64,000 nt of DNA from Pseudoxanthomonas mexicana (GTDB taxonomy: Bacteria > Pseudomonadota > Gammaproteobacteria > Xanthomonadales > Xanthomonadaceae): the NCBI RefSeq assembly GCF_010093385.1, contig NZ_PDWV01000017.1:1-64000 (forward strand), given 5' to 3'. Position numbers and translations under genes: made by a program. The notes under the pieces are model-generated. The model did not search any database. It saw nothing but the letters and a program-made list of their open reading frames with translations, and was not told the origin of the DNA. Shown in pieces: positions 25,959 to 38,133 of this stretch. Within the stretch, counting starts at the first letter, position 1; each line of letters begins with the position of its first letter.

Positions 25959-27317
25959 TCAGCCAGCGCACCCCGCAAGCGACTGAACTGCGCGCGCCAC
26001 GGCGTCCGCTTCCGAAGCCTCCTCGTCGGGCGCCAGCGGCTCGCCATAAGCATGGCCCGTGCGATCGACGAACCGGGTGGTGGTCAGCTTCAGCGCGGCG
26101 CCGCCTAGCACCGGAAACAACTGATTTCCGGTGCTGACACCCATGGTGGCCTGGCCCATGCTGCGCGTATGTGCTCGCCCACGGAACGCGACGGCGACGG
26201 CCTCGCCGGAGCTGGCGGTCTTCGCGCCCGTCACCACAACGACGGGGACAGCGGAAAGATCCGGGGCCGTTACGCCCGGCGGCGCGATGCGCCAGGCATT
26301 CTGGCGTCCATCCCGATCACGCATATAGCCCACCGTGGCGTCCCCCAGCAGCGGATGCAGGCCGGACAGCATCGGCCACATGTTGCCGCCCGAGTTGCCG
26401 CGCAGGTCCACGATCCATCCACACGAAGCTGAGGCCGCCCGGTCGGCGATGGCGGTGGCAAGGCCCCGTGCGAAATCGAGCGACGCGGCCTGCTCCGTAC
26501 CCGAGAACCCAGGAACAGCCACGATGCCTACCCGCTGTCGTACTTCCACGCGTGGCACGAAGGATGGCACGCCCTCGGTGGCGGAGCGCCTGACGTCGCT
26601 GGGCGGCAGCACGCCGCTGTGACGGTCGCCCAGTTGGGCAAGCAGACTGCGGATCAGGTCGTAGGCCGCGTCCGCCGTGTGCACCCGCTGCACGCGCGAC
26701 GCGATATCGGCCTGTGTACGGTCCCAGTCGATGCGATCGGCATACAGTGCATGCGCGCGCACATGCCTGACCGCATCCTCCACGATGCGGGCAGGCGGCA
26801 CGCCGTCGTCCGGTGATGGCGGGGCCTGCTCCAGGCGCAGTTCCCGCACGCTCATGCGACCCTTGCCGATCAGCAGGGGGCCGACCAACAGCCGTTCGGC
26901 CGCGGCAGGCACATAGATCTCGACCTGGCGCACCACATCAGCGGCATTGCCGGTCACAGGATTACGTTCGCTGTTGGCGAATGCGACGCGGCCGGACGCT
27001 GCATCTGCGCGCAACCAGATGCGTGCTGTATCCGATACGGCCTGCGTGGAAATGCGCCCGGTCAGGCGCACACGCTTCTCCCGGTAAGGCGTCGCATCGA
27101 TGACGGCAGTGCCGCCACCGAACCGTGTATCCGCCTCGGGCGTTGCGTAGACCGTCAGCGACGCGCCGCGTTCCGATTGCACGTCACCACCCCCATCCAG
27201 GACATAGTGCGCCGGATTGCCGATGAGCGACCATGGTGACGCGGCATGCACGTGCGCAGTGCACGCCACAATCCCCACCACACCCAGCGCCCCCTGCAGG
27301 CATTTCCATACCGTCAT
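25959..27317 (-). CDS. S41 family peptidase (tail-specific protease-like)
   Basis: A 452-aa secreted protease. It has a signal peptide (about residues 1-26), an N-terminal beta-rich domain (about 30-165) and a C-terminal S41 domain (about 180-445). The S41 core shows GWIVDLRGNSGGNMWP, and VTGAKTASSGEAVAVAFRG contains the expected catalytic Ser; the general base was not verified. No PDZ domain is evident, unlike CtpA. AAGGAG is 9 nt before ATG 27317. It probably acts in the periplasm. Confidence 0.88.
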   Translation of the reverse strand: MTVWKCLQGALGVVGIVACTAHVHAASPWSLIGNPAHYVLDGGGDVQSERGASLTVYATPEADTRFGGGTAVIDATPYREKRVRLTGRISTQAVSDTARIWLRADAASGRVAFANSERNPVTGNAADVVRQVEIYVPAAAERLLVGPLLIGKGRMSVRELRLEQAPPSPDDGVPPARIVEDAVRHVRAHALYADRIDWDRTQADIASRVQRVHTADAAYDLIRSLLAQLGDRHSGVLPPSDVRRSATEGVPSFVPRVEVRQRVGIVAVPGFSGTEQAASLDFARGLATAIADRAASASCGWIVDLRGNSGGNMWPMLSGLHPLLGDATVGYMRDRDGRQNAWRIAPPGVTAPDLSAVPVVVVTGAKTASSGEAVAVAFRGRAHTRSMGQATMGVSTGNQLFPVLGGAALKLTTTRFVDRTGHAYGEPLAPDEEASEADAVARAVQSLAGCAG

Positions 27318-27392
27318 CGCGCGCACTCCTTGCTTCGATACGTGCACGCTAGGCGATGGCGGTCGGCGTGGCAAGCTCCATGGAGGCGTCCG

Positions 27393-28061
27393 CTACAGCT
27401 TGAACAGCGGCTGCAGCCGTTGCGCCAGCCAGCCCGGGAAGCGCAGCGGCGCATCCAGTGCGGATACGCAGATGCAGGCGGTGCCGGGCACGGTGACCGG
27501 CTGGTGTTCGACGCCGCTGTCGAGATCGGCGATATCACCGGGCGCGAACTGGCCCAGCGCATCGTGGTAGGCGCCGCGCAGGATCTGGGTCAGCTCGGTA
27601 CCGCCGTGGCTGTGCACCGGCATGCTGCGGCCGGGACCGATCTTCAGCATCAGCAGGGTGCCGCTGCGAGGGCCGGCAGCGCGGATGCAGTGCACGCCCG
27701 GTGCCATCCAGCGCCACTTCAGCGCGCGGTACGAGGCGCCGAAGTACGGATGCAGCGGCGCCGGCAGCCGGTCATCGTCCTCGTAGGGCGTGCCACGGGG
27801 GGCCGCGACGGGTGCCGGCGGCAGCGGTGCATCCAGCTGTTCCAGCATGGAGGCACGCAGGTCGGCCGGGCGGGACGGCGACAACGCCGGCTGCTGGTGT
27901 TCGACCAGCTGCCCGCCGATGCGTTCGGCCTCGTCCACGCGCGCGCGGCAGTGCGCGCAGGTTTCCAGATGGGTGGCGGCGACGACGGCCATCTCCACGG
28001 CCAGCGCGCCGGCCGCGTAGCTGACCACGGTGGAGGGGTCGAGATGATGATGCGGGTTCAC
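27393..28061 (-). CDS. chrR: ChrR-type zinc anti-sigma factor
   Basis: A 222-aa anti-sigma factor of the ChrR family. The N-terminal zinc anti-sigma domain shows an early histidine run (NPHHHLDP), then HLETCAHC (H-x3-C-x2-C) near residues 30-37. The C-terminal cupin domain (about 125-215) includes MPVHSHGGTELTQILRG and EHQPVTV. In Rhodobacter the equivalent protein binds sigma E and releases it upon singlet oxygen. The GTG start at 28061 overlaps the TGA of the sigma gene (GTGA), so translation is coupled. If the sigma gene is truly broken, this protein would lack its partner. Confidence 0.9.
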   Translation of the reverse strand: MNPHHHLDPSTVVSYAAGALAVEMAVVAATHLETCAHCRARVDEAERIGGQLVEHQQPALSPSRPADLRASMLEQLDAPLPPAPVAAPRGTPYEDDDRLPAPLHPYFGASYRALKWRWMAPGVHCIRAAGPRSGTLLMLKIGPGRSMPVHSHGGTELTQILRGAYHDALGQFAPGDIADLDSGVEHQPVTVPGTACICVSALDAPLRFPGWLAQRLQPLFKL

Positions 28062-28683
28062 GGCTGACCTCGTATTTGACCCTGCAGGCGCAGGAACGCG
28101 CGCCGCAGGTGCGACTTCACCGTACCCAGCGGCATCTGCAGCTCGTCGGCGATTTCCTGGTGGCTCTTGGCTTCGAAGTAGGACATGCGCATCAGCCGCG
28201 CCTGCACGGCAGGCAGGTCTTCGATGCGGCGCTGCAGGTGCACGTGCTCGGCATAGTCCTCGGCCGAGGTGAACGGTCGCGCCAGTTCCTCGTCGCTGGC
28301 GGGCGCGGCTTCCTCCAGCCCCTGCACCCAGCCCGGCTCGCGCCGGATGCGGGCGATATGCAGGGTGCGGCCGATGCGGAACAGCCAGGTGGAGACCGCG
28401 CCCTGCTGCGGGTCGACATGGCGGCGCGCTGCCACAGGCGCAGCAGGGCTTCCTGCGCCAGTTCCTCGGCCACGGCCTCGGGGCTGCCCAGGCCACGCAG
28501 GTACAGGCACAGGCGCGGCATGAAGTGGTCGTACAGGCGCATGAAGGCCGCGCGGTCGCGCGCGCGCGCCACCGACAGCATGTCGGCGGTCCAGTCGTGC
28601 GCGTCGCGCGTGAGGGGCGTAGGCGTGGACACCGGGGATGCGGCCCGAAGGGGCGGCGGTCTCCTTGTGAAGTCGGTGGGCAT
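28058..28683 (-). pseudogene. ECF sigma factor (SigE/RpoE partner of ChrR), frameshifted
   Basis: The two halves of an ECF sigma factor lie in different frames. From ATG 28683 the first frame gives region 2 (AAFMRLYDHFMPRLCLYLRG through EELAQEALLRLWQRAA). Near 28420 the continuation HVDPQQGAVSTWLFRIGRT and region 4 (MSYFEAKSHQEIADELQMP, GTVKSHLRRA) shift to another frame. Adding one base in GCCGCCAT (one C, giving AAHVDP) restores a 208-aa protein of normal length and spacing. It is a true pseudogene or an assembly indel. It is adjacent to and coupled with the ChrR gene, and is the presumed regulator of the divergent lipid operon. Confidence 0.85.
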
Positions 28684-28825
28684 GGTATGCCAGGTCCCGG
28701 TGCGTGCGTGATGACGGTCTCTACGAAGATGACCGGGGTTCGGATGCAGAGGCCCGCGCGCTGCCGGAGGCATCCGCCGGACGCCGACCTGCGTAGACGT
28801 TCGGGTCCTGCCCACGGAGCGTCCC

Positions 28826-29604
28826 ATGCCCCGCCGACCCTTGCGCCTGCTGGCCGCGCTGCTGTTGATGGCGCCCCCCGCCTTTGCCGGTACCGACGTC
28901 CTGCGCCAGGAGGCCATCGCCTACGCCCGCAAGGGCGACACCGTGCTCTATCGCGAATCCCACTGGCGCTACCGCCAGGAGGGGGTGGCGCGGCGCCTGG
29001 TGCTGTACCGATGCCCCGACGGGCGCGCGTTCGCCCGCAAGACCGTGGTCGAACGGCCTGCCGCGCAGGCGCCCGACTTCGACTTCGAGGATGCGCGCGA
29101 CGGCTATCGCGAGGGGGTGCGCACCGGCCCCGGCGGGCGCGTGGTCTACGTCAGGGACGTCGGGGACGCCCGTCCGAAGGAGCGCACCCTGGCGACGCCC
29201 CCGATGCCGTCATCGATGCGGGCTTCGACGCCAGCGTGCGCCAGCACTGGGAGGCGCTGAGGTCGGGGCGCGGGGTCACCCAACCCTTCCTGCTGCCGAG
29301 CCGCTTCGCGTTCGTTCCGGTCAAGCTGCAGCCGGGCCCGGCCGTGCGCTGGAACGGCGTGCCCGCCCAGCGCCTGTCGATGAAGCTGGACCGCTGGTCC
29401 GGTTTCGTGGCGCCGACGATGGAGCTGACGTACGCCAGCGAGGACCGGCGCCTGCTGGAGTTCGCCGGCATCGCGACCATCCGCGACGAAGAAGGCCGCC
29501 ATCAGGACGTGCGCATCGTGTTCCCGCAGGCGGCCACCCCTGCCGATGCACGCGCGCTGCAGGGCGCGCTGGCGACGCCGCTGGTGCGGCAGTGCCGCGG
29601 ATGA
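28826..29604 (+). pseudogene. secreted hypothetical protein, frameshifted
   Basis: It starts at ATG 28826 with a Sec signal peptide (about residues 1-21, ending PAFA). The first frame reads well to ERTLATPP near 29200; the continuation DAVIDAGFDASVRQHW...VRQCRG is in another frame and ends at 29604. The switch lies in a run of five C's (around 29197-29202), and a sixth C restores one 259-aa protein. No family is recognised. It is the first gene of the divergent lipid operon, 43 nt before the desaturase, so it probably belongs to that pathway in the periplasm. It is a pseudogene or a homopolymer sequencing error. Confidence 0.8.
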
Positions 29605-29647
29605 CGACGCGTCTTCCCGCATCCAATACCGCCGCTGCGCCGTAGTG

Positions 29648-30625
29648 ATGAACGACGCAACCGAGACCCCCGTGATGCCGGCCCGCGATTCCTCCCCTTC
29701 CATGCCGGTCCGCCGTGCCGCGTCCGTCCTGCGCCGCTGGTTCGACACCCAGGCCCACGGCGACGACGGCGGGCAGCCGGACCGCATCGACTGGCTGCGC
29801 GTGTTGCCCTTCATCGGCCTGCACCTGGCGTGCGTCGCCGTGCTCTGGGTCGGGGTGTCGCCGGTCGCGGTGGCCGTGGCGGTCGCGCTGTACGCGGTAC
29901 GGATGTTCGCCATCACCGGCTTCTACCACCGCTACTTCTCGCACCGCACCTTCCGCACCTCGCGCGTGCTGCAGTTCGTGTTCGCACTGATCGGCGCCTC
30001 CAGCGTGCAGCGCGGACCGCTGTGGTGGGCCGCGCACCACCGCAACCATCATCGCCACGCCGATACCGCGGCCGATCCGCATTCGCCGAACCAGCGCGGG
30101 TTCTGGTGGAGCCATGCGGGCTGGTTCCTGACCCGCGAGGGTTTCCGCACGGACTGGTCGCGCATCCCCGACCTGGCGCGCTACCCGGAGCTGCGCTGGC
30201 TGGACCGCTACGACACCGTGGTGCCGGTGCTGCTTGCCGCCGCCCTGTACGGTCTTGGCGCGCTGCTGGAAAGCACGGCCCCGCAGTTGGGCACCAACGG
30301 GCCGCAGATGCTGGTGTGGGGCTTCTTCGTTTCCACCGTGGTGCTGTTCCATGCCACGGTGACCATCAACTCGCTGGCGCACCGGTACGGCCGCCGCCGT
30401 TTCGACACCCGCGACGACAGCCGCAACAATCTCTGGCTCGCCCTGCTGACCTTCGGCGAGGGCTGGCACAACAACCATCACTTCTTCCCGGGGACCGCAC
30501 GCCAGGGCTTCCGCTGGTGGGAGATCGACCTGACCTGGTACGGCCTGCGCGCGATGGCGCTGTTCGGGCTGGTGCGCGACCTCAAGCCGGTGCCCGCATG
30601 GGTGCTGGCCAAGGCGAGGCGCTGA
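29648..30625 (+). CDS. acyl-CoA/fatty-acid desaturase
   Basis: A 325-aa membrane di-iron desaturase with the three histidine boxes: HRYFSH (about residue 93), HHRNHH (about 130) and HNNHH in [14 protein letters not shown] (about 275). Paired hydrophobic helices are placed as in delta-9 stearoyl-type desaturases. It would insert a double bond into fatty acyl chains in the inner membrane. ATG 29648 is used; a GTG directly upstream is an alternative. Its stop is 2 nt before the next start, making it part of a tightly packed operon that probably supplies unsaturated chains to the methylases downstream. Confidence 0.92.
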
Positions 30626-30627
30626 GC

Positions 30628-31911
30628 ATGCGCATCGCGGTCATCGGATCCGGCATCGCCGGCCTGGCTTCGGCGTGGTGGCTGTCGCGGCGGCACGAGG
30701 TTGTGCTGTTCGAAGCCAACGACTACCTCGGCGGACACACGCATACCCACAACATCGAACAGGCGGGCCGCGAGTACCGCATCGACAGCGGCTTCATCGT
30801 GTTCAACCCGGACCACTATCCGCTGCTGTGCGGACTGTTCGACGAACTCGGCGTGGCATCGCAGCCGACCACGATGAGCTTTTCCGTGCACAGCGAGTGC
30901 AGCGGCGTCGAATACAACGCGACCTCGCTGGATACGCTGTTCTGCCAGCGCCGCAACCTGGCGTCGCCGCGGTTCTGGGGCATGCTGCGCGACCTGGCGC
31001 GTTTCTACCGGGAGGCACCTGCGCTGCTCGAGGGCGATGCCACCGGACCCACCCTGGGCGACTGGCTGCAGGCCGGCGGCTATGGCGACGCCTTCCGCGA
31101 CGAGCACCTGGTGCCGATGGCGTCCGCGCTATGGTCCTCGCCACCGCAGGGCATCCTGGCTTTCCCGGCGCGGTACCTGGTGCAGTTCATGGCCAACCAC
31201 CACATGCTGACGTTGGGCACCCGCCCGCCGTGGCGCGTGGTGACCGGCGGGTCGGCGACGTACGTGGAGGCGCTGCGCCGTCGCTGGGGCGTGCAGGAGC
31301 GGTTGTCCTCGCCTGTGCTGGCGGTACGGCGCGATGCCGATGGTGTCGAACTGGACACGCTGCGCGGCCGCGAACGCTTCGACCAGGTGGTGCTGGCCTG
31401 CCACAGCGACGATGCGCTGCGGCTGATGCAGGACGCCGACGCACGCGAACGCGACATCCTCGGTGCGATCCGTTACCAGTCCAACGACACCGTGCTGCAC
31501 ACCGACGCGCGCCTGCTGCCGCAGCGCCGCAAGGCCTGGGCCGCCTGGAACGCGCACGTGCCGCGCGACCCGTCGGCACCGTGCACGGTCAGTTACTGCA
31601 TGAACCTGCTGCAGGGCGTGGACTCGCCCGAGCCCTTCGTGGTCACGCTCAACCGCAGCCATGCCATCGACCCCGCCCGCGTCCTCCGCCGCATGCACTA
31701 CCGGCATCCGGTCTACGACCACGCCATGGTCGCCGCGCAGCGGCGCAGGCATGAGATACAAGGACAGCGGCGCACGTGGTTCGCAGGCGCCTACTGGGGT
31801 TGGGGCTTCCACGAAGACGGTATCCGCAGTGCGCGTGACGTGGTCGATGCCATCCAGGCGTTGCCCGTCGAAGCGCCCGCGCCGGCCGGCGTCGAACCGG
31901 TGGGCGCATGA
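30628..31911 (+). CDS. NAD(P)/FAD-dependent oxidoreductase (amine-oxidase-like)
   Basis: A 427-aa flavoprotein. The N-terminal Rossmann motif (IAVIGSGIAGLASAWWLS, then VVLFEANDYLGGHTHT) marks the amine-oxidase/phytoene-desaturase-like group. It ends with FAGAYWGWGFHEDGIRSA, a C-terminal FAD contact typical of this family. This is the type often found next to DUF1365 and CFA-synthase genes. In the Rhodobacter furan fatty-acid pathway a desaturase (UfaD) acts on methylated chains, and a related role here is inference. Overlapping start/stop codons tie it to DUF1365. Confidence 0.92.
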   Translation: MRIAVIGSGIAGLASAWWLSRRHEVVLFEANDYLGGHTHTHNIEQAGREYRIDSGFIVFNPDHYPLLCGLFDELGVASQPTTMSFSVHSECSGVEYNATSLDTLFCQRRNLASPRFWGMLRDLARFYREAPALLEGDATGPTLGDWLQAGGYGDAFRDEHLVPMASALWSSPPQGILAFPARYLVQFMANHHMLTLGTRPPWRVVTGGSATYVEALRRRWGVQERLSSPVLAVRRDADGVELDTLRGRERFDQVVLACHSDDALRLMQDADARERDILGAIRYQSNDTVLHTDARLLPQRRKAWAAWNAHVPRDPSAPCTVSYCMNLLQGVDSPEPFVVTLNRSHAIDPARVLRRMHYRHPVYDHAMVAAQRRRHEIQGQRRTWFAGAYWGWGFHEDGIRSARDVVDAIQALPVEAPAPAGVEPVGA

Positions 31912-32684
31912 ACGCGCCCCTGGCCAGCGCGGTGTACGAGGGCTGGGTGCGGCACCGCCGGCATGCGCCACGCGCGCACGCATTCCGCTATCGCATGGCG
32001 CAGCTCTACCTGGACCTGGACGAGATCGAAACGGTGTTCGCCCGCCGCTGGCTGTGGTCGGTGGATCGCCGCAACCTGGCCGAGTTCCGCCGGCACGACT
32101 ACCTGGCACCGCATGACCAGCCGCTGGCCGAAGCCGTGCGCGACCGCGTCGAACGCGCGCTGGGCCACCGTCCGCAGGGTCCGGTCCGTCTGCTGACGCA
32201 CCTGCGTTACGGCGGCTACGTCTTCAACCCGGTCAGCTTCTACTATTGCTTCCAGCCCGATGGCGCCACTCTGGACGCCGTACTGGCCGAGATCACCAAC
32301 ACGCCGTGGCGCGAGCGGCACAGCTACGTACTGCCGGTGCGCGACGGCGTGCCGTATGGCGACGGTTGGGAATGGAGCTTCGACAAGGCCTTCCATGTGT
32401 CGCCGTTCCTGCCGATCGACTGCGCCTACCGCTGGCGCTTCACCGTGCCCGACGAAGCGCTGCGCGTGCACATGCAGGTCGACCGCGAAGGACGGCGCGC
32501 CTTCGACGCCACCCTCACCCTGTTGCGCCAGCCGCTGGACGGCCGTTCGCTGGCGCGCGTGCTGTGGCGCTATCCGCTGATGACAGCGCAGGTGATGACC
32601 GGCATCCACTGGCAGGCGCTGCGCCTGTGGCTCAAGCGCACGCCCGTCCACGACCATCCTTCCCTTGCCCGCGAGACCCCATGA
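31908..32684 (+). CDS. DUF1365 protein
   Basis: A 258-aa DUF1365 protein, recognised from YEGWVRHRRHAPRAHAFRYR at the start, LLTHLRYGGYVFNPVSFYY and ITNTPWRERHSYVL. ATG overlaps the preceding TGA by 4 nt, and its own stop overlaps the next ATG. DUF1365 genes almost always neighbour a FAD oxidoreductase and a CFA-like methylase. The reaction is unestablished, but a role in modifying phospholipid acyl chains is likely. It is probably peripheral to the membrane. Confidence 0.92.
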   Translation: MNAPLASAVYEGWVRHRRHAPRAHAFRYRMAQLYLDLDEIETVFARRWLWSVDRRNLAEFRRHDYLAPHDQPLAEAVRDRVERALGHRPQGPVRLLTHLRYGGYVFNPVSFYYCFQPDGATLDAVLAEITNTPWRERHSYVLPVRDGVPYGDGWEWSFDKAFHVSPFLPIDCAYRWRFTVPDEALRVHMQVDREGRRAFDATLTLLRQPLDGRSLARVLWRYPLMTAQVMTGIHWQALRLWLKRTPVHDHPSLARETP

Positions 32685-33931
32685 ACGAGATCGCCGACAT
32701 TCCCGCCGCCGCTTCCTTCGGTGCGCTCGATCGCCTGCTACGGTCCCAGCTGCTGGCGCGCCTGGATGCGCTGGACCACGGCATGCTGGTGGTCCGCGAC
32801 GCGCTGGGCGAGCACCGCTTCGGACGTACCGGTGGCGATGCGCTGCCCGTCGTGCACCTGCGGATCGACGATCCGTCGTTCTACCGTGCCGTCGCCGCGC
32901 AGGGCAGCGTGGGCGCGGGCGAGGCCTACATCGCCGGCCAGTGGCGATGCGACGATCTGGTGGGCCTGGTGCGCCTGCTGGTACGCAACCGCGAGCTGCT
33001 CGACGGCATGGAAGGCGGGCTGGCGCGGCTGGGGGGCTGGGCGCTGCGCAGCTGGCATGCACTCCGCCGCAACACACGCGAGGGCAGCCGCCGCAACATC
33101 GCGGCGCACTACGACCTGGGCAACGATTTCTTCGCGCTGTTCCTGTCGCCGGACCTGATGTACTCCTCGGCGATGTTCGCCTCGCCGGACGAGGATCTTG
33201 AAACGGCCTCGTACCGCAAGCTCGATGCCGTGTGCCGCAAGCTGGCGCTGGCGCCCGGCGACCGGGTGATCGAGATCGGCACCGGCTGGGGTGGCTTCGC
33301 GCTGCACGCGGCGCGCCACTATGGGGCCCATGTCACCACGACCACGATCTCGCGCGAACAGCACGCGCTCGCCAGCCAGCGCGTGGCCGAGGCCGGCCTG
33401 CAGGACCGGGTGACCCTGCTGCTGCAGGACTACCGCGACCTGCAGGGACAGTACGACAAGCTGGTCTCCATCGAGATGATCGAGGCGATCGGCGCGCAGT
33501 ACCTCGACACCTTCTTCGGCAAGCTGGGCAGTCTGCTGCGGCCGGGCGGACAGGCGCTGCTGCAGGCCATCACCATCGAGGATCATCGCTACGTGCAGGC
33601 GCGCGACTCGGTGGACTACATCAAGCGCTTCGTCTTTCCCGGCAGCTTCATTCCCTCGCTCAACGCCATGTACGGCGCAAAGACCCGCGTCAGCGACCTG
33701 CAGGTCGTCCACCAGGAGGACTTCGGCCTGTCGTACGCGTACACGCTGCGGGCCTGGCGGCGCCGCTTCATGATCCGGCTGGCGGAGGTGCGCGCGCAGG
33801 GCTTCGACGAGCGCTTCATCCGTCTATGGGAGTTCTACCTGGCCTATTGCGAAGGCGGCTTCCTGGAGCGGTCCATCGGCGTATCCCATTTGCTGATGGC
33901 TCGTCCCGGCCACCCGTCGGGGGCCGCATGA
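32681..33931 (+). CDS. cyclopropane-fatty-acyl-phospholipid synthase-like methylase
   Basis: A 416-aa SAM-dependent methylase of the CFA synthase family. It has an N-terminal lipid-binding domain (about residues 1-115; GEAYIAGQWRCDD) and a C-terminal Rossmann methyltransferase domain with AHYDLGNDFFALFLSPDLMYSS (split at about 140-160), VIEIGTGWGGFALHAA (the SAM site), SIEMIEAIG and FIRLWEFYLAYCEGGF. It would methylate or cyclopropanate unsaturated acyl chains on membrane phospholipid. It is start/stop coupled on both sides within the operon. Confidence 0.93.
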   Translation: MNEIADIPAAASFGALDRLLRSQLLARLDALDHGMLVVRDALGEHRFGRTGGDALPVVHLRIDDPSFYRAVAAQGSVGAGEAYIAGQWRCDDLVGLVRLLVRNRELLDGMEGGLARLGGWALRSWHALRRNTREGSRRNIAAHYDLGNDFFALFLSPDLMYSSAMFASPDEDLETASYRKLDAVCRKLALAPGDRVIEIGTGWGGFALHAARHYGAHVTTTTISREQHALASQRVAEAGLQDRVTLLLQDYRDLQGQYDKLVSIEMIEAIGAQYLDTFFGKLGSLLRPGGQALLQAITIEDHRYVQARDSVDYIKRFVFPGSFIPSLNAMYGAKTRVSDLQVVHQEDFGLSYAYTLRAWRRRFMIRLAEVRAQGFDERFIRLWEFYLAYCEGGFLERSIGVSHLLMARPGHPSGAA

Positions 33932-34725
33932 GTCTCCTGCACTCCCTCGCCTGGGGGGCCCTGGTCGCCGCTGCGATGATGACGCTGGGCTGGCTGTGGC
34001 AGCGGCGCCGCGAGAATGCGGGCATCGTAGATGTGCTGTGGTCGGCCTGCGTGGGCGGCAGCGCGATCCTACTGGCTGTGCTGGGCGACGGCGCGTGGCA
34101 AGCGCGCACCACGCTGGCGGTGCTCGGCGGGTTGTGGGGTGCGCGCCTGGCGCTGCACCTGTGGCACCGCGTGCGCAGCGAGCCCGAGGACGGACGCTAC
34201 CGCTACCTGCGCGAACACTGGCACGGGCATCAGGGCAAGTTCTTCCTGTTCTTCATGGCGCAGGCGCTGTTGGTGGTGCTGTTCGCCCTGCCCTTCGCCG
34301 CCGCGGCGCGCAGTCCGGTCGATGCCGCATGGCCGTGGATCGTGCTGGCGGTGGCCATCTGGGTGGGCAGCGTGGCCGGCGAGGCCATCGCCGACCGCCA
34401 GCTGGCGCGCTTCCGCGCCGATCCCGCCAACCGCGGCAGGACCTGCCGCGAGGGCCTGTGGCGTTACTCGCGCCATCCCAACTACTTCTTCGAATGGCTG
34501 CACTGGTTCGCCTACGTCGCGTTGGCCGTCGGATCGCCCTGGCAGGGGTTGTCGTGGTGCGGGCCGGTGGTGATGTACGTGTTCCTGCGCTGGATCAGTG
34601 GCATTCCCTATACCGAGGCGCAGGCGCTGCGCACCCGCGGCGACGAGTACCGCGAATACCAGCGCACCACGCCGATGCTGTTCCCCTGGTTTCCCAAATC
34701 CGCCACCAAGGAGGCGACACGATGA
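33928..34725 (+). CDS. DUF1295 membrane protein
   Basis: A 265-aa integral membrane protein of the DUF1295 family (related to steroid 5-alpha-reductase and isoprenylcysteine methyltransferases). It has six or so helices and the family motif GLWRYSRHPNYFFEWLHW, then GIPYTEAQALRTRGDEYREYQ. The family's reductase-like fold suggests action on a double bond or lipid head in the membrane; the substrate is unknown. Start/stop overlap (ATGA) ties it to both neighbouring methylase genes. Confidence 0.92.
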   Translation: MSLLHSLAWGALVAAAMMTLGWLWQRRRENAGIVDVLWSACVGGSAILLAVLGDGAWQARTTLAVLGGLWGARLALHLWHRVRSEPEDGRYRYLREHWHGHQGKFFLFFMAQALLVVLFALPFAAAARSPVDAAWPWIVLAVAIWVGSVAGEAIADRQLARFRADPANRGRTCREGLWRYSRHPNYFFEWLHWFAYVALAVGSPWQGLSWCGPVVMYVFLRWISGIPYTEAQALRTRGDEYREYQRTTPMLFPWFPKSATKEATR

Positions 34726-35804
34726 ACGCGATGGTGGAAGAACTGGCCGCCGACCGGGTTGCTCCCGGCCTGCTGGGCCTGGCCGAGCGCGGCCTGTTGC
34801 CTGATGTGCTGATCCGTGCCGGCATCCGCCGGCTGTGCGCGCAGCGGCTGCGTGACGAGACCGCGGGCGGGCAGCAGGCGCAGTCGGCTCTGCTGGCGCA
34901 ACGCCTGCGCGCGCTGCGGCAGGGGGCACTGGCGGTGCACACCGATGCCGCCAACCGGCAACACTACGAACTGCCGGCGGACTTCTTCCGCCACTGCCTT
35001 GGCCACCGGCTCAAGTACAGCAGCTGCTACTACCCCACCGGCACTGAGACGCTGGACCAGGCGGAGGACGCGATGCTGGCGCTGTACGGCGAACGCGCTG
35101 CGCTCGCCGACGGCCAGGATATCCTGGAGCTGGGCTGCGGCTGGGGTTCGCTGACGCTGTGGATGGCCGAGCGCTATCCGAATGCGCGGATCACCGCGGT
35201 CTCCAATTCGCACTCCCAGCGCCAGTTCATCGAGGCGCGCTGCGCCGAACGCGGCCTGCGCAACGTGCGCGTCATCACCTGCGACGTGAACCAGCTGCAG
35301 CTGGAACCGCAGGCCTTCGACCGTTGCGTGTCGGTGGAGATGTTCGAACACGTCAGCAACCATGCCGCCCTGATGCGTCGCATCCATGACGCCCTGCGCC
35401 CGGGCGGCGCACTGTTCGTGCACATCTTCGTCCACCGCCACCTGATGTATCCGTTCGAGACGCAGGGCGAGGACAACTGGATGGGCCGGCATTTCTTCAC
35501 CGGCGGCATGATGCCGTCGGCCGACCTGCTGCTGTTTTTCCAGGAACATCTGCACCTGCAGGAACGCTGGATGCTGGACGGCACGCACTATCAGCGCACC
35601 GCCAACCACTGGCTGGCCCACCACGATGCGCACCGCGACGAGGTGATGTCCGTCCTGCGCGCCGCCTATGGCGAGGCAGCGCCACTGTGGAACCAGCGCT
35701 GGCGGATGTTCTGGATGGCCTGTGCGGAACTGTTCGGCTACCGCGACGGACAGGAGTGGCTGGTGGCCCACTATCGCTTCCAGCGGCCGGCGCGGGAGCA
35801 CTGA
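34722..35804 (+). CDS. second CFA-synthase-like SAM-dependent methylase
   Basis: A 360-aa methylase of the CFA/coclaurine N-methyltransferase-like branch: HYELPADFFRHCLGHRLKYSS, ILELGCGWGSLTLWMAERYP (the SAM site, about residues 130-150), SVEMFEHVSNH and FVHRHLMYPFE. It lacks the full N-terminal lipid-binding domain of the first methylase. Two different methylases in one operon suggest two successive methylations of the same acyl chain, as in dimethylated furan fatty acids where a separate methylase (FufM in Rhodopseudomonas) acts last; this is inference. ATG 34722 overlaps the previous stop. Confidence 0.92.
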   Translation: MNAMVEELAADRVAPGLLGLAERGLLPDVLIRAGIRRLCAQRLRDETAGGQQAQSALLAQRLRALRQGALAVHTDAANRQHYELPADFFRHCLGHRLKYSSCYYPTGTETLDQAEDAMLALYGERAALADGQDILELGCGWGSLTLWMAERYPNARITAVSNSHSQRQFIEARCAERGLRNVRVITCDVNQLQLEPQAFDRCVSVEMFEHVSNHAALMRRIHDALRPGGALFVHIFVHRHLMYPFETQGEDNWMGRHFFTGGMMPSADLLLFFQEHLHLQERWMLDGTHYQRTANHWLAHHDAHRDEVMSVLRAAYGEAAPLWNQRWRMFWMACAELFGYRDGQEWLVAHYRFQRPAREH

Positions 35805-35805
35805 C

Positions 35806-36342
35806 ATGCGCACCCTGCCCTTCGTGCTGCTCGCCCTGATGGTCGCCACCACCACCGCCGCCTGCCGCTCCGGCAACGTCAAGCCGTCCATCCCCACGGC
35901 GGCACCGGTCGACGTGGACCGCTTCATGGGCGACTGGTACGTCATCGCGCATATCCCCTCGTTCCCCGAGCGCGAAGCCTATGCCGCCGTGGAGTCGTAC
36001 GCGAAGCTGCCCGACGGCCGCATCCAGACCACGTTCCGCTTCCGCAAGGGCGCATTGGACGGACCGGAGAAGACGATGCATCCGGTCGGCACGGTCACGC
36101 CCGGCACGGGCGGTGCGGTGTGGGGCATGCAGTTCATCTGGCCGATCCAGGCCGAGTACGTCATCGCGTACGTGGACGCCGACTACCAGCAGACGATCGT
36201 GGGGCGCAGCAAGCGCGACTATGTGTGGCTGATGGCGCGCACGCCGCGGATATCCGACGCGGACTACGAAGCACGGATCAGGCAGATCCAGGCATTGGGA
36301 TACGACGTGTCGAAGATCCGGCGCGTGCCGCACGCACCTTGA
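35806..36342 (+). CDS. lipocalin family protein (Blc-like)
   Basis: A 178-aa bacterial lipocalin. The N-terminal signal peptide ends in a lipobox-like TTAAC (Cys near residue 20). The lipocalin signature VDVDRFMGDWYVIAHIPSF is at about 37-55, and LMARTPRISDADYEARI resembles the Blc C-terminus. It would be an outer-membrane lipoprotein binding fatty acids or lysophospholipids. It lies 1 nt after the second methylase and is the last gene of the operon, so it may carry or protect the modified lipids. Confidence 0.92.
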   Translation: MRTLPFVLLALMVATTTAACRSGNVKPSIPTAAPVDVDRFMGDWYVIAHIPSFPEREAYAAVESYAKLPDGRIQTTFRFRKGALDGPEKTMHPVGTVTPGTGGAVWGMQFIWPIQAEYVIAYVDADYQQTIVGRSKRDYVWLMARTPRISDADYEARIRQIQALGYDVSKIRRVPHAP

Positions 36343-36597
36343 AGCCCAGGCGCGTAATCGCGCTTACCGGGCCGCCTGTCAGCGCGCGCTTTCCTGCGCC
36401 CTCCCGCAGGCGCTAATGTGGCCGGACCGCAGCGCCCACCGCGCCGCGGTCCGACGCCTCAAGTCGGGCCTCCCCCCCGCCGATGCCGAGGGAAGGGACT
36501 CGACGACACCGGGGGTCGGGCAGGCTGCGCTGGGGGGCTGCATGGCGACAACACCGTTCCACACTGCCGACGCGCTGCGCCAGCGCATCGCCGACGC

Positions 36598-38133
36598 GTG
36601 TGCCACGAGAAGATCTACCCCGCCTACCAACCCATCGTCTGCCTGCGGACCCGTGCCATCCACGGATTGGAAGTGCTGGCGCGCTGGCACGATCCCGACT
36701 TCGGCGCCGTGCCGCCAAAGGATTTCATTCCCATCGCGCTGCAGGCTTCGCTGCTGCCGCTGCTGACACTGAATCTGGTACGCCGCGCCTGTGCGGAAGC
36801 CAGCACGTGGCCTGGCCGATTCTGCCTGGCGTTCAACGTGCCGCCATCGCTGCTACAGGACGCACCGGCGGTGCGCCTGCTGCTGGAGGCGATGGCCGAG
36901 TCGTCGTTCCCGCTGGACCGCATCTGCATCGAGATGACCGAGGACGAACTGGTCGAGGACGAACCCGCCGCGGAACGGGCTTTCGGCTATCTGAAATCCC
37001 ACGGCATCCGCGTGGCTCTGGACGACTTCGGCACCGGATTCTCCAGCATGGTGCGGCTGAGCCGCTTCGGCTTCGACGAACTGAAGATCGATGGTGGCCT
37101 GATCCAGCGCCTGACCACCGACCGCGAGAGCCGCAAGGTGGTGTCGGCCATCATCGGCCTGGGCCACAGCCTGGACGTGCCGGTGGTGGCCGAGTGGGTG
37201 GAGACCGAAGCGCAGGCGGACGTGCTGCGCGAGCTGGGCTGCGATTACGCGCAGGGCTGGCTGACCGGCCGGCCCATGCCGGGCGGCGCGGTGGCGCAGC
37301 TGCTGGCGACGGCGCCCGTGCATACCGCCTCGCCCGCATCGCAGCCGATGTCGCCCTACCTGCGCCAGCACCAGCTGTCCTCGCTCTACAACAGCGCACC
37401 GGTGGGCCTGGCGTTCCTGGACCTGGACATGCGCTACGCGGCGGCGAACACTCAGTTCGCACGCATGGTGGGCCGGCCGCCCTGCGAGATCGTGGGTTCG
37501 CATGTCCGAGAGGTCTACGCGCCGGATATCGCGGCATGGATCGTGCAGGCATCGCAACGGATCCTGGACAGCGGCGACACCTCCCGCATCGAATTCCGCT
37601 TCCCGGGCCGCGAAGAGACCTTTCTGGTGGTCGGCTCACGGGTGACCGATGAAACGGCCCAGCCCATCGGCATCTCCGTGGTCAGCATCGACATCACCGA
37701 CCGCAAGCGCGTCGAGGAAGAGCTGCGCGCCCGCGAAGCGACCTACCGCGCCGTCGTGGAACTGGGGCCCAACGTGCTGTGGGTCAGCGATGCCGCCGGC
37801 ACCCTCACCTACATCAGCCCCGTCCCGCAGGAGCCGGAAGGCTGCTCGATGGAAACGCGCATGGCCGCCTGGTATGCACGCATGGACGAGAACGACCGCG
37901 TGCGCGTGCGCGCCGAATGGCTGGCCGCCGTACACACCCGCGACACGTTCGAGACCCGCTTCCGCCTGCGCTGGTTCGACGAGCGCTGGCGCTGGGTCTC
38001 CAGCCGCGCCACGCCCCGGACAGCCCCCGACGGCACCCGCTGCTGGTTCGGCGTGTTCACCGACATTTCGCGGCAGGTGGAACTGGAGCAGCAGCTGGCA
38101 AGGCGGGATCCGGCACTTCCCAGCCCGGATTGA
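36598..38133 (+). CDS. EAL-PAS-PAS protein, 5' end probably frameshifted
   Basis: About 511 aa from the in-frame GTG at 36598, which has no ribosome site. The EAL domain (about residues 5-240) has an EVL variant (HGLEVLARW) but keeps N (AFNVP), E (EMTEDEL), DD (LDDFGTG), K (LKID), E (AEWVE) and Q (AQGW), so c-di-GMP hydrolysis is possible. Two PAS domains follow (about 255-380 and 385-500), an unusual order. ATG 36542, with a GGGGGG ribosome site, begins MATTPFHTADALRQRIADA in another frame; removing one TG from GTGTG near 36599 would fuse it smoothly to CHEKIYPAYQPIV. A short frame disruption is therefore likely. Confidence 0.75.
   Translation: MCHEKIYPAYQPIVCLRTRAIHGLEVLARWHDPDFGAVPPKDFIPIALQASLLPLLTLNLVRRACAEASTWPGRFCLAFNVPPSLLQDAPAVRLLLEAMAESSFPLDRICIEMTEDELVEDEPAAERAFGYLKSHGIRVALDDFGTGFSSMVRLSRFGFDELKIDGGLIQRLTTDRESRKVVSAIIGLGHSLDVPVVAEWVETEAQADVLRELGCDYAQGWLTGRPMPGGAVAQLLATAPVHTASPASQPMSPYLRQHQLSSLYNSAPVGLAFLDLDMRYAAANTQFARMVGRPPCEIVGSHVREVYAPDIAAWIVQASQRILDSGDTSRIEFRFPGREETFLVVGSRVTDETAQPIGISVVSIDITDRKRVEEELRAREATYRAVVELGPNVLWVSDAAGTLTYISPVPQEPEGCSMETRMAAWYARMDENDRVRVRAEWLAAVHTRDTFETRFRLRWFDERWRWVSSRATPRTAPDGTRCWFGVFTDISRQVELEQQLARRDPALPSPD

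Follow-up and report, generated by a model that had tools for sequence, protein, structure and literature searches.

What is made by an operon that carries two genes annotated as cyclopropane fatty acid (CFA) synthases together with a FAD oxidase, a DUF1365 gene and a DUF1295 gene? The question is raised by a locus of Pseudoxanthomonas mexicana, which lies in a stretch of 64,000 nucleotides of contig NZ_PDWV01000017.1 (the window hereafter). A chrR gene and a gene for an extracytoplasmic function (ECF) sigma factor stand there on the minus strand, divergent from a secreted-protein gene and from a run of seven genes; the two CFA-type genes of this run are called CFA1 and CFA2. Furan fatty acids are membrane antioxidants of plants, fish and some bacteria. 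With a probability of about 0.75, we read the locus as an operon that is controlled by sigma-E and ChrR and that puts dimethyl furan fatty acids on membrane phospholipids. What was obtained directly is homology, clades, promoter-like sites, operon conservation, the association of DUF1295 with FufM and a predicted fold; all of the chemistry proposed for P. mexicana, and the parts played by DUF1295, the desaturase and the lipocalin, we infer.

Identity of the pathway enzymes

Are the enzymes of the furan pathway really encoded here? Deletions or in vitro tests of UfaM, UfaD, UfaO and FufM have been reported for Rhodobacter sphaeroides and Rhodopseudomonas palustris, and all four genes were deletion-tested in R. 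palustris strain CGA009 (PMC7380195). Named Rhodopseudomonas genomes were found by one scan, and R. palustris XCP was used for identities: the proteins of the window show 43% to UfaD (418 residues), 38% to UfaO, 42% to UfaM, 53% to FufM and 40% to the DUF1295 protein. Of the three CMAS proteins of XCP, the first is encoded next to DUF1365, the second is a plain one and the third (FufM) is remote, as described for CGA009 (PMC7380195), and together with the order UfaD-UfaO-UfaM they fit RPA2571-2569, RPA3082 and RPA0924. UfaM of XCP is 28% identical to FufM and 36% to the plain CMAS protein; the CGA009 proteins were reported at 26 and 38% to UfaM of R. sphaeroides (PMC7380195). Two other Rhodopseudomonas genomes have three CMAS proteins as well, and a fourth has two. 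When UfaD of XCP was searched against the genome of the window, the only match at E <=0.001 lay in the FAD oxidase gene, at 30628-31887. Likewise, the DUF1365 gene of the operon is the sole DUF1365 match of this genome. A reading of the window from its letters alone (the sequence-only reading) had treated DUF1365 as an uncharacterised step; this was wrong, as UfaO itself is a DUF1365 protein (Lemke 2020, PMC7380195). No solved structure resembles the DUF1365 protein in sequence at E 1.

The two methylases were placed on a tree of 46 rows (21 of 66 FufM, 19 of 45 UfaM, the two rows of the window and only four plain CFA synthases). CFA2 groups with FufM at a support of 100/100 and CFA1 with UfaM at 99/96, and the four plain CFA synthases fall outside. 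The bicarbonate ligands of E. coli Cfa are C139 and H266. At these positions all 46 UfaM rows, including CFA1, have S or A and Q, and all four CFA rows have C and H; the His ligand is retained in 67 of 67 FufM rows. Since CFA2 stands in the 100/100 clade with FufM, dimethyl furan acids are predicted. Counterparts of UfaD, UfaO, UfaM and FufM are thus all present, as expected if the pathway ends in a dimethyl product, and sequence comparison and trees relate the FAD protein and the methylases to the Ufa and Fuf proteins.

A comparison of FufM (34722-35804) with solved structures gave 243.5 bits for coclaurine N-methyltransferase (6gkv) and 91.7 bits for CFA synthase. That FufM is closest to coclaurine N-methyltransferase fits the reported likeness between FufM and the plant protein AT4G33110 (PMC10940516), and it suggests a shared origin of FufM and the plant alkaloid N-methyltransferases.

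By homology, the pathway would run as follows. The desaturase would supply a monounsaturated chain, UfaM (CFA1) would methylate it, and UfaD would introduce a second double bond. UfaO would then insert oxygen from O2 and close a monomethyl furan, on whose ring FufM (CFA2) would place the second methyl. The furan ring would be sacrificed to reactive oxygen. Once FufM has acted, the DUF1295 protein might reduce, in the membrane, a C=C of the dimethyl-furan lipid or of the product of its oxidation. The lipocalin might take care of damaged lipid at the outer membrane. As to UfaM, the enzyme of Halomonas gave 11-methyl-octadec-12-enoate in E. coli (PMC12089945).

Probable control by the sigma factor and ChrR

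Is the operon under the control of the neighbouring sigma factor? By domain searches, the ChrR anti-sigma gene adjoins the ECF sigma gene, whose frame is interrupted in the assembly, and the pair fits the ECF11 sigma/ChrR system. The homologue in P. syringae has its own promoter TGATCC-N16-CGTA (PMC5507510). The pattern NNATCC-N16-CGTA occurs four times in the window against 0.8 expected, and three of the sites stand at the starts of the ECF, secreted-protein and desaturase genes, all of them GCATCC; the leading GC, picked only after the sites were seen, differs from the TG of the P. syringae promoter. In the whole genome of 3.97 Mb, GCATCC-N16-CGTA is found 26 times and the reversed pattern twice. 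The wider pattern [TG][GC]ATCC-N15-17-CGTA gave 38 sites in 20 loci of the same family, and 33 of them are found at <=300 bases ahead of the desaturase, this ECF or the secreted-protein gene; among the desaturase sites, 15 have N16 and one has N17. Eight of 23 further genome sites, picked by eye, were traced to a gene, and seven of these precede a recognised one: GTP cyclohydrolase I (folE), a second lipocalin, two photolyase families, a molybdopterin oxidoreductase, a fasciclin and an HlyD-type protein. Photolyase is a member of the published core regulon (PMC5507510). In Stenotrophomonas maltophilia, an operon of the same order rose 165-697-fold in a chrR mutant and fell again when the sigma factor was missing as well, in RNA-seq done once (PMC11832516). 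Control by sigma and ChrR, as proposed in the sequence-only reading, is thus supported by homology and promoter-like sites.

The second Blc-type lipocalin of this genome (contig C27, L074:896-1477) is 31% identical to that of the operon, and a separate promoter-like site precedes its start by 23 bases.

Conservation in the family and on plasmids

How far is the operon kept? The sample was 119 genomes of the family, with that of the window among them. In 63 a counterpart of CFA2 is encoded, at 60-100% identity, and the next best match is at 35%. From these 63 genomes, 20 loci were read. The core desaturase-UfaD-UfaO-UfaM-DUF1295-FufM is present in 19 of the 20, which is beyond chance, and 14 of those 19 have the lipocalin too. 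In 16 of the 19, UfaM and DUF1295 are separated by some 0.6 kb, and the gene found there in the one locus checked (L104) is a DUF2878 gene; the window has no DUF2878 gene. In the remaining locus (L108, from genome G063 of the window's genus), the FufM counterpart has 61% identity, and none of the other operon genes was found in the 13 kb read around it.

FufM is also found on 44 of 72,556 plasmid records. Four plasmids were read. Three of them, from Acinetobacter piscicola, Burkholderia anthina and Cupriavidus, have the FAD oxidase, DUF1365, a second CFA-type gene, DUF1295 and the lipocalin, with the desaturase as well in A. piscicola. The fourth, from Ensifer, has the FAD oxidase, DUF1365, DUF1295 and ChrR; its gene table, which is incomplete, lists neither a lipocalin nor another CFA. 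Extra neighbours of the plasmid copies (L269, L270, L271, L272) are a chalcone-isomerase-like gene in three, photolyase in two, and DUF2878 and DUF2177 in one each; DUF2177 appears also in the singlet-oxygen table of Chlamydomonas (PMC4067076).

In six loci of the family (L096, L097, L098, L101, L102, L109), the fetched stretch has no ChrR, and a different ECF (29-34% identity) lies upstream of the operon. It is followed by an RskA-type anti-sigma gene in both loci tested (L097, L109). All six retain the GCATCC-N16-CGTA site in front of the desaturase. Apparently, the sensor was swapped while the promoter stayed the same.

DUF1295 as a partner of FufM

There is a further question of concern, what does DUF1295 do in such an operon? 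The operon copy is the only DUF1295 of this genome. In a sample of 398 genomes of the phylum, DUF1365 occurs in 151, DUF1295 in 49 and the FufM type in 33. Among the 151 genomes with UfaO (DUF1365), 29 of the 30 with FufM have DUF1295, against 11 of the 121 without FufM. Counted by families, the numbers are 12 of 12 with FufM and 6 of 30 others, and a permutation within families gave p 4e-4 (observed 29, mean 24.1). Outside the 151, none of the three FufM genomes has DUF1295; these (G152, G478, G497) have no DUF1365 match. The association is therefore with FufM, and a tie of DUF1295 to UfaM, UfaD and UfaO alone was not upheld. Nor was a strict tie to FufM, in view of the 11 FufM-negative UfaO genomes. 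In three of these (G207, G262, G407) DUF1295 lies beside UfaD/UfaO; in four (G237, G355, G431, G449) the matches are weak, at 104-130 bits; and around DUF1295 in the other four (G149, G377, G416, G440) no operon gene was seen.

The neighbourhood was also examined in 80 named FufM loci, nearly all from Bradyrhizobium, Rhodopseudomonas and their kin: 63 have a DUF1295 match and 17 have none, one of these for want of sequence. In 59 named loci with a usable frame, DUF1295 ends <=130 bases from fufM, and it stands directly upstream of fufM in all annotated Rhodopseudomonas loci. Since RPA0923 is numbered next to fufM (RPA0924), this synteny makes RPA0923 very probably the DUF1295 gene. RPA0923 deletions appear in the strain and plasmid table of Lemke 2020 (PMC7380195).

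A tree of 38 rows was built for DUF1295 (37 of 70 rows and the window). In total 27 rows fall in a 100/100 clade, 23 of them beside FufM and four beside UfaD/UfaO. Four more neighbours of FufM (L117, L119, L120, L121) stand outside the main clade with seven unlinked rows. The idea that DUF1295 joined FufM twice, independently, was not upheld, as a single clade of all 31 was not rejected (p-AU 0.456).

What kind of enzyme is it? The predicted model has a pLDDT of 88.2. In a Foldseek search, its four best rows (three structures) are sterol or steroid reductases, with probability 1.00, TMq 0.47-0.56 and E 0.011-0.056. Next comes ICMT, with probability about 0.5 and TMq 0.25-0.27. Pfam agrees in placing Steroid_dh above its cut-off and ICMT below. 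The structure alignment was made with 49 of the 59 usable DUF1295 frames out of 63. The D, N and E of the NADPH region of SRD5A align with DUF1295. Thus the DUF1295 protein is likely a membrane C=C reductase, as far as a model can tell. One alternative concerns this protein only, that it is a methyltransferase of the ICMT kind, dependent on S-adenosylmethionine and acting on a lipid or thiol. By sequence, the solved structure that matches it best is indeed an ICMT, chain 4a2n, in the C-terminal third (E 6.5e-4 single, 1.5e-4 profile); the steroid reductases 7c83 and 7bw1 rank lower (E 0.13 and 0.78), while the search with the whole fold and the Pfam cut-offs both favour the reductases; we hold the methyltransferase to be rather unlikely.

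If it is a reductase, what is reduced? Singlet oxygen, as radicals do, turns furan acids into dioxoenes. A dioxoene is an ene-dione, an activated C=C of the kind that 5-alpha-reductases reduce, and a 1,4-dione can re-close to a furan by Paal-Knorr chemistry. One scenario would be that the furan quenches singlet oxygen and its ring opens to the ene-dione, that DUF1295, like a steroid 5-alpha-reductase, uses NADPH to reduce the C=C to give the 1,4-dione, and that dehydration then gives the furan again, so that the membrane antioxidant would be catalytic and not spent once. The proposal that the dimethyl-furan pathway has a recycling step, hitherto missing, in which DUF1295 reduces the ene-dione of spent furan so that the ring re-forms, is speculative and we give it a small chance. 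A role in recycling or clearing would explain why DUF1295 follows FufM while it is dispensable for FufM activity. Oxidation of furan acids to dioxoenes by radical pathways has been described (PMC12595405).

Is the product really a dimethyl furan?

Several observations weigh against the furan reading. The furan product is a prediction by homology, and the assembly has an interrupted frame for the ECF. Cyclic acids were also found in the strain with Halomonas UfaM (PMC12089945). In S. maltophilia, mutants hardly differed from the wild type when exposed to Rose Bengal or tert-butyl hydroperoxide, without a singlet-oxygen phenotype (PMC11832516), and these negative tolerance tests weigh against the singlet-oxygen part of the sequence-only reading. 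Of the 33 FufM genomes, three lack UfaO and four lack DUF1295, and FufM may have other substrates, because G063 has it without the cluster. As for DUF1295, no Foldseek match reaches E 0.001, and it is not needed for the second methylation, because in R. sphaeroides the dimethyl product was obtained with FufM alone (PMC7380195).

Might the operon instead serve cyclopropane and unsaturated fatty acids under stress, with the DUF genes as accessories? This is what the authors of the S. maltophilia study suggested (PMC11832516), and the annotation as two CFA synthases and the CMAS domain in both CFA1 and CFA2 agree with it. However, CFA1 is without the two ligands of the cyclopropane synthases, which are present in a separate plain CFA synthase (L001) elsewhere in the genome; CFA2 is nearer to coclaurine N-methyltransferase than to CFA synthase; and no part in the synthesis of cyclopropane acids is known for UfaD or UfaO. 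We thus regard a plain cyclopropane operon as very improbable. The pathway might also stop early, at a methylated ene, a diene or the monomethyl furan, and CFA2 would then methylate something else. That its closest solved relatives are N-methyltransferases, and that relatives of CFA2 occur without UfaO in three of 33 genomes and alone in G063, could be explained in this way. The clade and the 53% identity which CFA2 shares with FufM of R. palustris speak for the second methyl on the ring, as does the operon that it shares with UfaM, UfaD and UfaO in 19 of the 20 family loci, and an early stop appears improbable. The dimethyl furan remains our preferred product.

Layout of the locus

The features are listed in Table 1. 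ORF positions and domain searches place the genes where the sequence-only reading had put them, with the expected domains; its range 28058-36342 holds the gene set as named, except that chrR (27393-28061) lies almost wholly outside it. The last seven genes, from desaturase to lipocalin, are tightly packed: four of the six junctions overlap by 4 bases and two are spaced by 1-2 bases. The true start codon of the desaturase may be downstream, at 29675 or 29702.

Table 1. Genes and promoter-like sites of the locus (positions in the window)
Feature	Position	Strand	Evidence
chrR, zinc/cupin anti-sigma factor	27393..28061	-	TIGR02451 164 bits (above cut-off), Cupin_7 39 bits; 96% in G117
ECF sigma factor, frame interrupted near 28416	28058..28686	-	Sigma70_r4_2 52.7 bits, Sigma70_r2 22.2 bits
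promoter-like site GCATCC-N16-CGTA, before ECF gene	28722..28747	-	site in 9/9 family loci with this ECF
promoter-like site GCATCC-N16-CGTA, before secreted-protein gene	28770..28795	+	site in 8/10 family loci with the gene
secreted protein, frame interrupted near 29200	28826..29604	+	signal peptide by eye
promoter-like site GCATCC-N16-CGTA, before desaturase	29619..29644	+	site in 16/19 family loci
acyl desaturase	29648..30625	+	PF00487 FA_desaturase 93 bits
UfaD-type FAD oxidase	30628..31911	+	Amino_oxidase 81 bits; 43% to UfaD of R. palustris XCP
UfaO-type DUF1365 protein	31908..32684	+	PF07103 292 bits; 38% to UfaO of R. palustris XCP
UfaM-type methylase CFA1	32681..33931	+	CMAS 270 bits; UfaM clade; 42% to UfaM of XCP
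DUF1295 membrane protein, predicted NADPH-type C=C reductase	33928..34725	+	PF06966 228 bits, Steroid_dh 30 bits (above cut-off)
FufM-type methylase CFA2	34722..35804	+	CMAS 138 bits; FufM clade; 53% to FufM of XCP
Blc-type lipocalin lipoprotein	35806..36342	+	PF08212 Lipocalin_2 138 bits; lipobox-like start by eye

The pieces of the two broken genes, for the ECF and the secreted protein, were searched separately. Those of the ECF match sigma region 4 above the cut-off and region 2 just under it (22.2 bits, cut-off 24), and neither piece of the secreted protein has a Pfam or NCBIfam match. In the close relative G117 the two genes are in frame, and each frame of the window is one base off against it, a point that the sequence-only reading did not note. 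An EAL-domain gene (by eye) at 36554-38133, 3' of the lipocalin, has a one-base frameshift against G117 as well, near 36598, and an error of the assembly is therefore no less likely than decay. With such other one-base differences in the window, decay of the ECF as a functional signal was considered and not upheld. The ORF that follows chrR (25959-27374) looks by eye like a peptidase and not like chrA.

Comparison with known systems

The closest described layout is that of S. maltophilia, smlt2375-smlt2367 with rpoEc-chrR-chrA (2025, PMC11832516), likened here by layout. It has the divergent sigma/ChrR pair as in the window, and its order is periplasmic protein, desaturase, FAD oxidoreductase, cytosolic protein, CFA, two inner-membrane proteins, CFA and lipocalin, nine genes against eight. 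The extra inner-membrane gene is probably DUF2878, to judge from the size of the gap in the family loci. The word furan is absent from the main text of that paper. Halomonas, also a gammaproteobacterium, has ufaM, ufaD and ufaO in a row (PMC12089945). Of the sequence-only reading, then, sigma/ChrR control and the dimethyl furan pathway are supported by homology, while DUF1365 is not uncharacterised and a gammaproteobacterial unit with lipocalin is not undescribed.

R. palustris shares with the window all four enzymes, as ufaD-ufaO-ufaM and fufM (PMC7380195), and in the named Rhodopseudomonas loci read DUF1295 comes directly before fufM, as in the window. However, the genes of R. palustris lie in two separate loci instead of one operon, and the Rhodopseudomonas loci have no desaturase or lipocalin match beside the ufa and fuf genes. 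The RpoE/ChrR regulon of R. sphaeroides (RSP1091-1087), likened by description, has sigma/ChrR control, UfaD and UfaO in common with the window; in this photosynthetic host, by contrast, ufaM lies apart and FufM had to be added to give the dimethyl acid (PMC7380195).

The SAK1-dependent singlet-oxygen genes of Chlamydomonas, likened by names only, include CFA1, CFA2, DUF1365 and DUF1295, and also DUF2177 and a fasciclin-like gene (PMC4067076). The log2 values in the singlet-oxygen table are 5.9 for CFA1, 4.1 for CFA2, 3.5 for DUF1365, 3.3 for DUF2177 and 3.0 for DUF1295, and Table 9 calls CFA2 a coclaurine N-methyltransferase. This is a eukaryote without operon, and furan chemistry is not mentioned in the text at hand; furan modification in Chlamydomonas was under study according to a 2021 review (PMC8491031). 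As part of the speculative recycling proposal, the five-part kit of UfaM, UfaD, UfaO, FufM and DUF1295 might be at work in green algae and plants as well.

What is new and what it would mean

The operon layout and the enzymes are already known. In the papers considered here, proof of the whole furan pathway is limited to two alphaproteobacteria (PMC7380195), and one step was shown for Halomonas (PMC12089945). A full-text search, which was without most subscription journals, found no paper that joins furan fatty acids with DUF1295 or with Stenotrophomonas, or FufM with coclaurine N-methyltransferase, and found DUF1295 and DUF1365 together in the Chlamydomonas paper only (PMC4067076); DUF1295 by itself is named in 14 papers. 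The link between enzymes and operon in this lineage and the partnership of DUF1295 with FufM therefore appear unreported in the searchable literature.

If the furan reading is true, about half of the sampled family genomes (63/119 with FufM) would be able to make the dimethyl form, and so would some plasmids of Acinetobacter, Burkholderia and Cupriavidus. The place of plant coclaurine N-methyltransferase as the nearest solved structure to FufM would give a hint at the origin of plant alkaloid N-methylation. DUF1295 would gain a testable role, probably with a mutant that already exists, and the S. maltophilia regulon would gain a chemical meaning.

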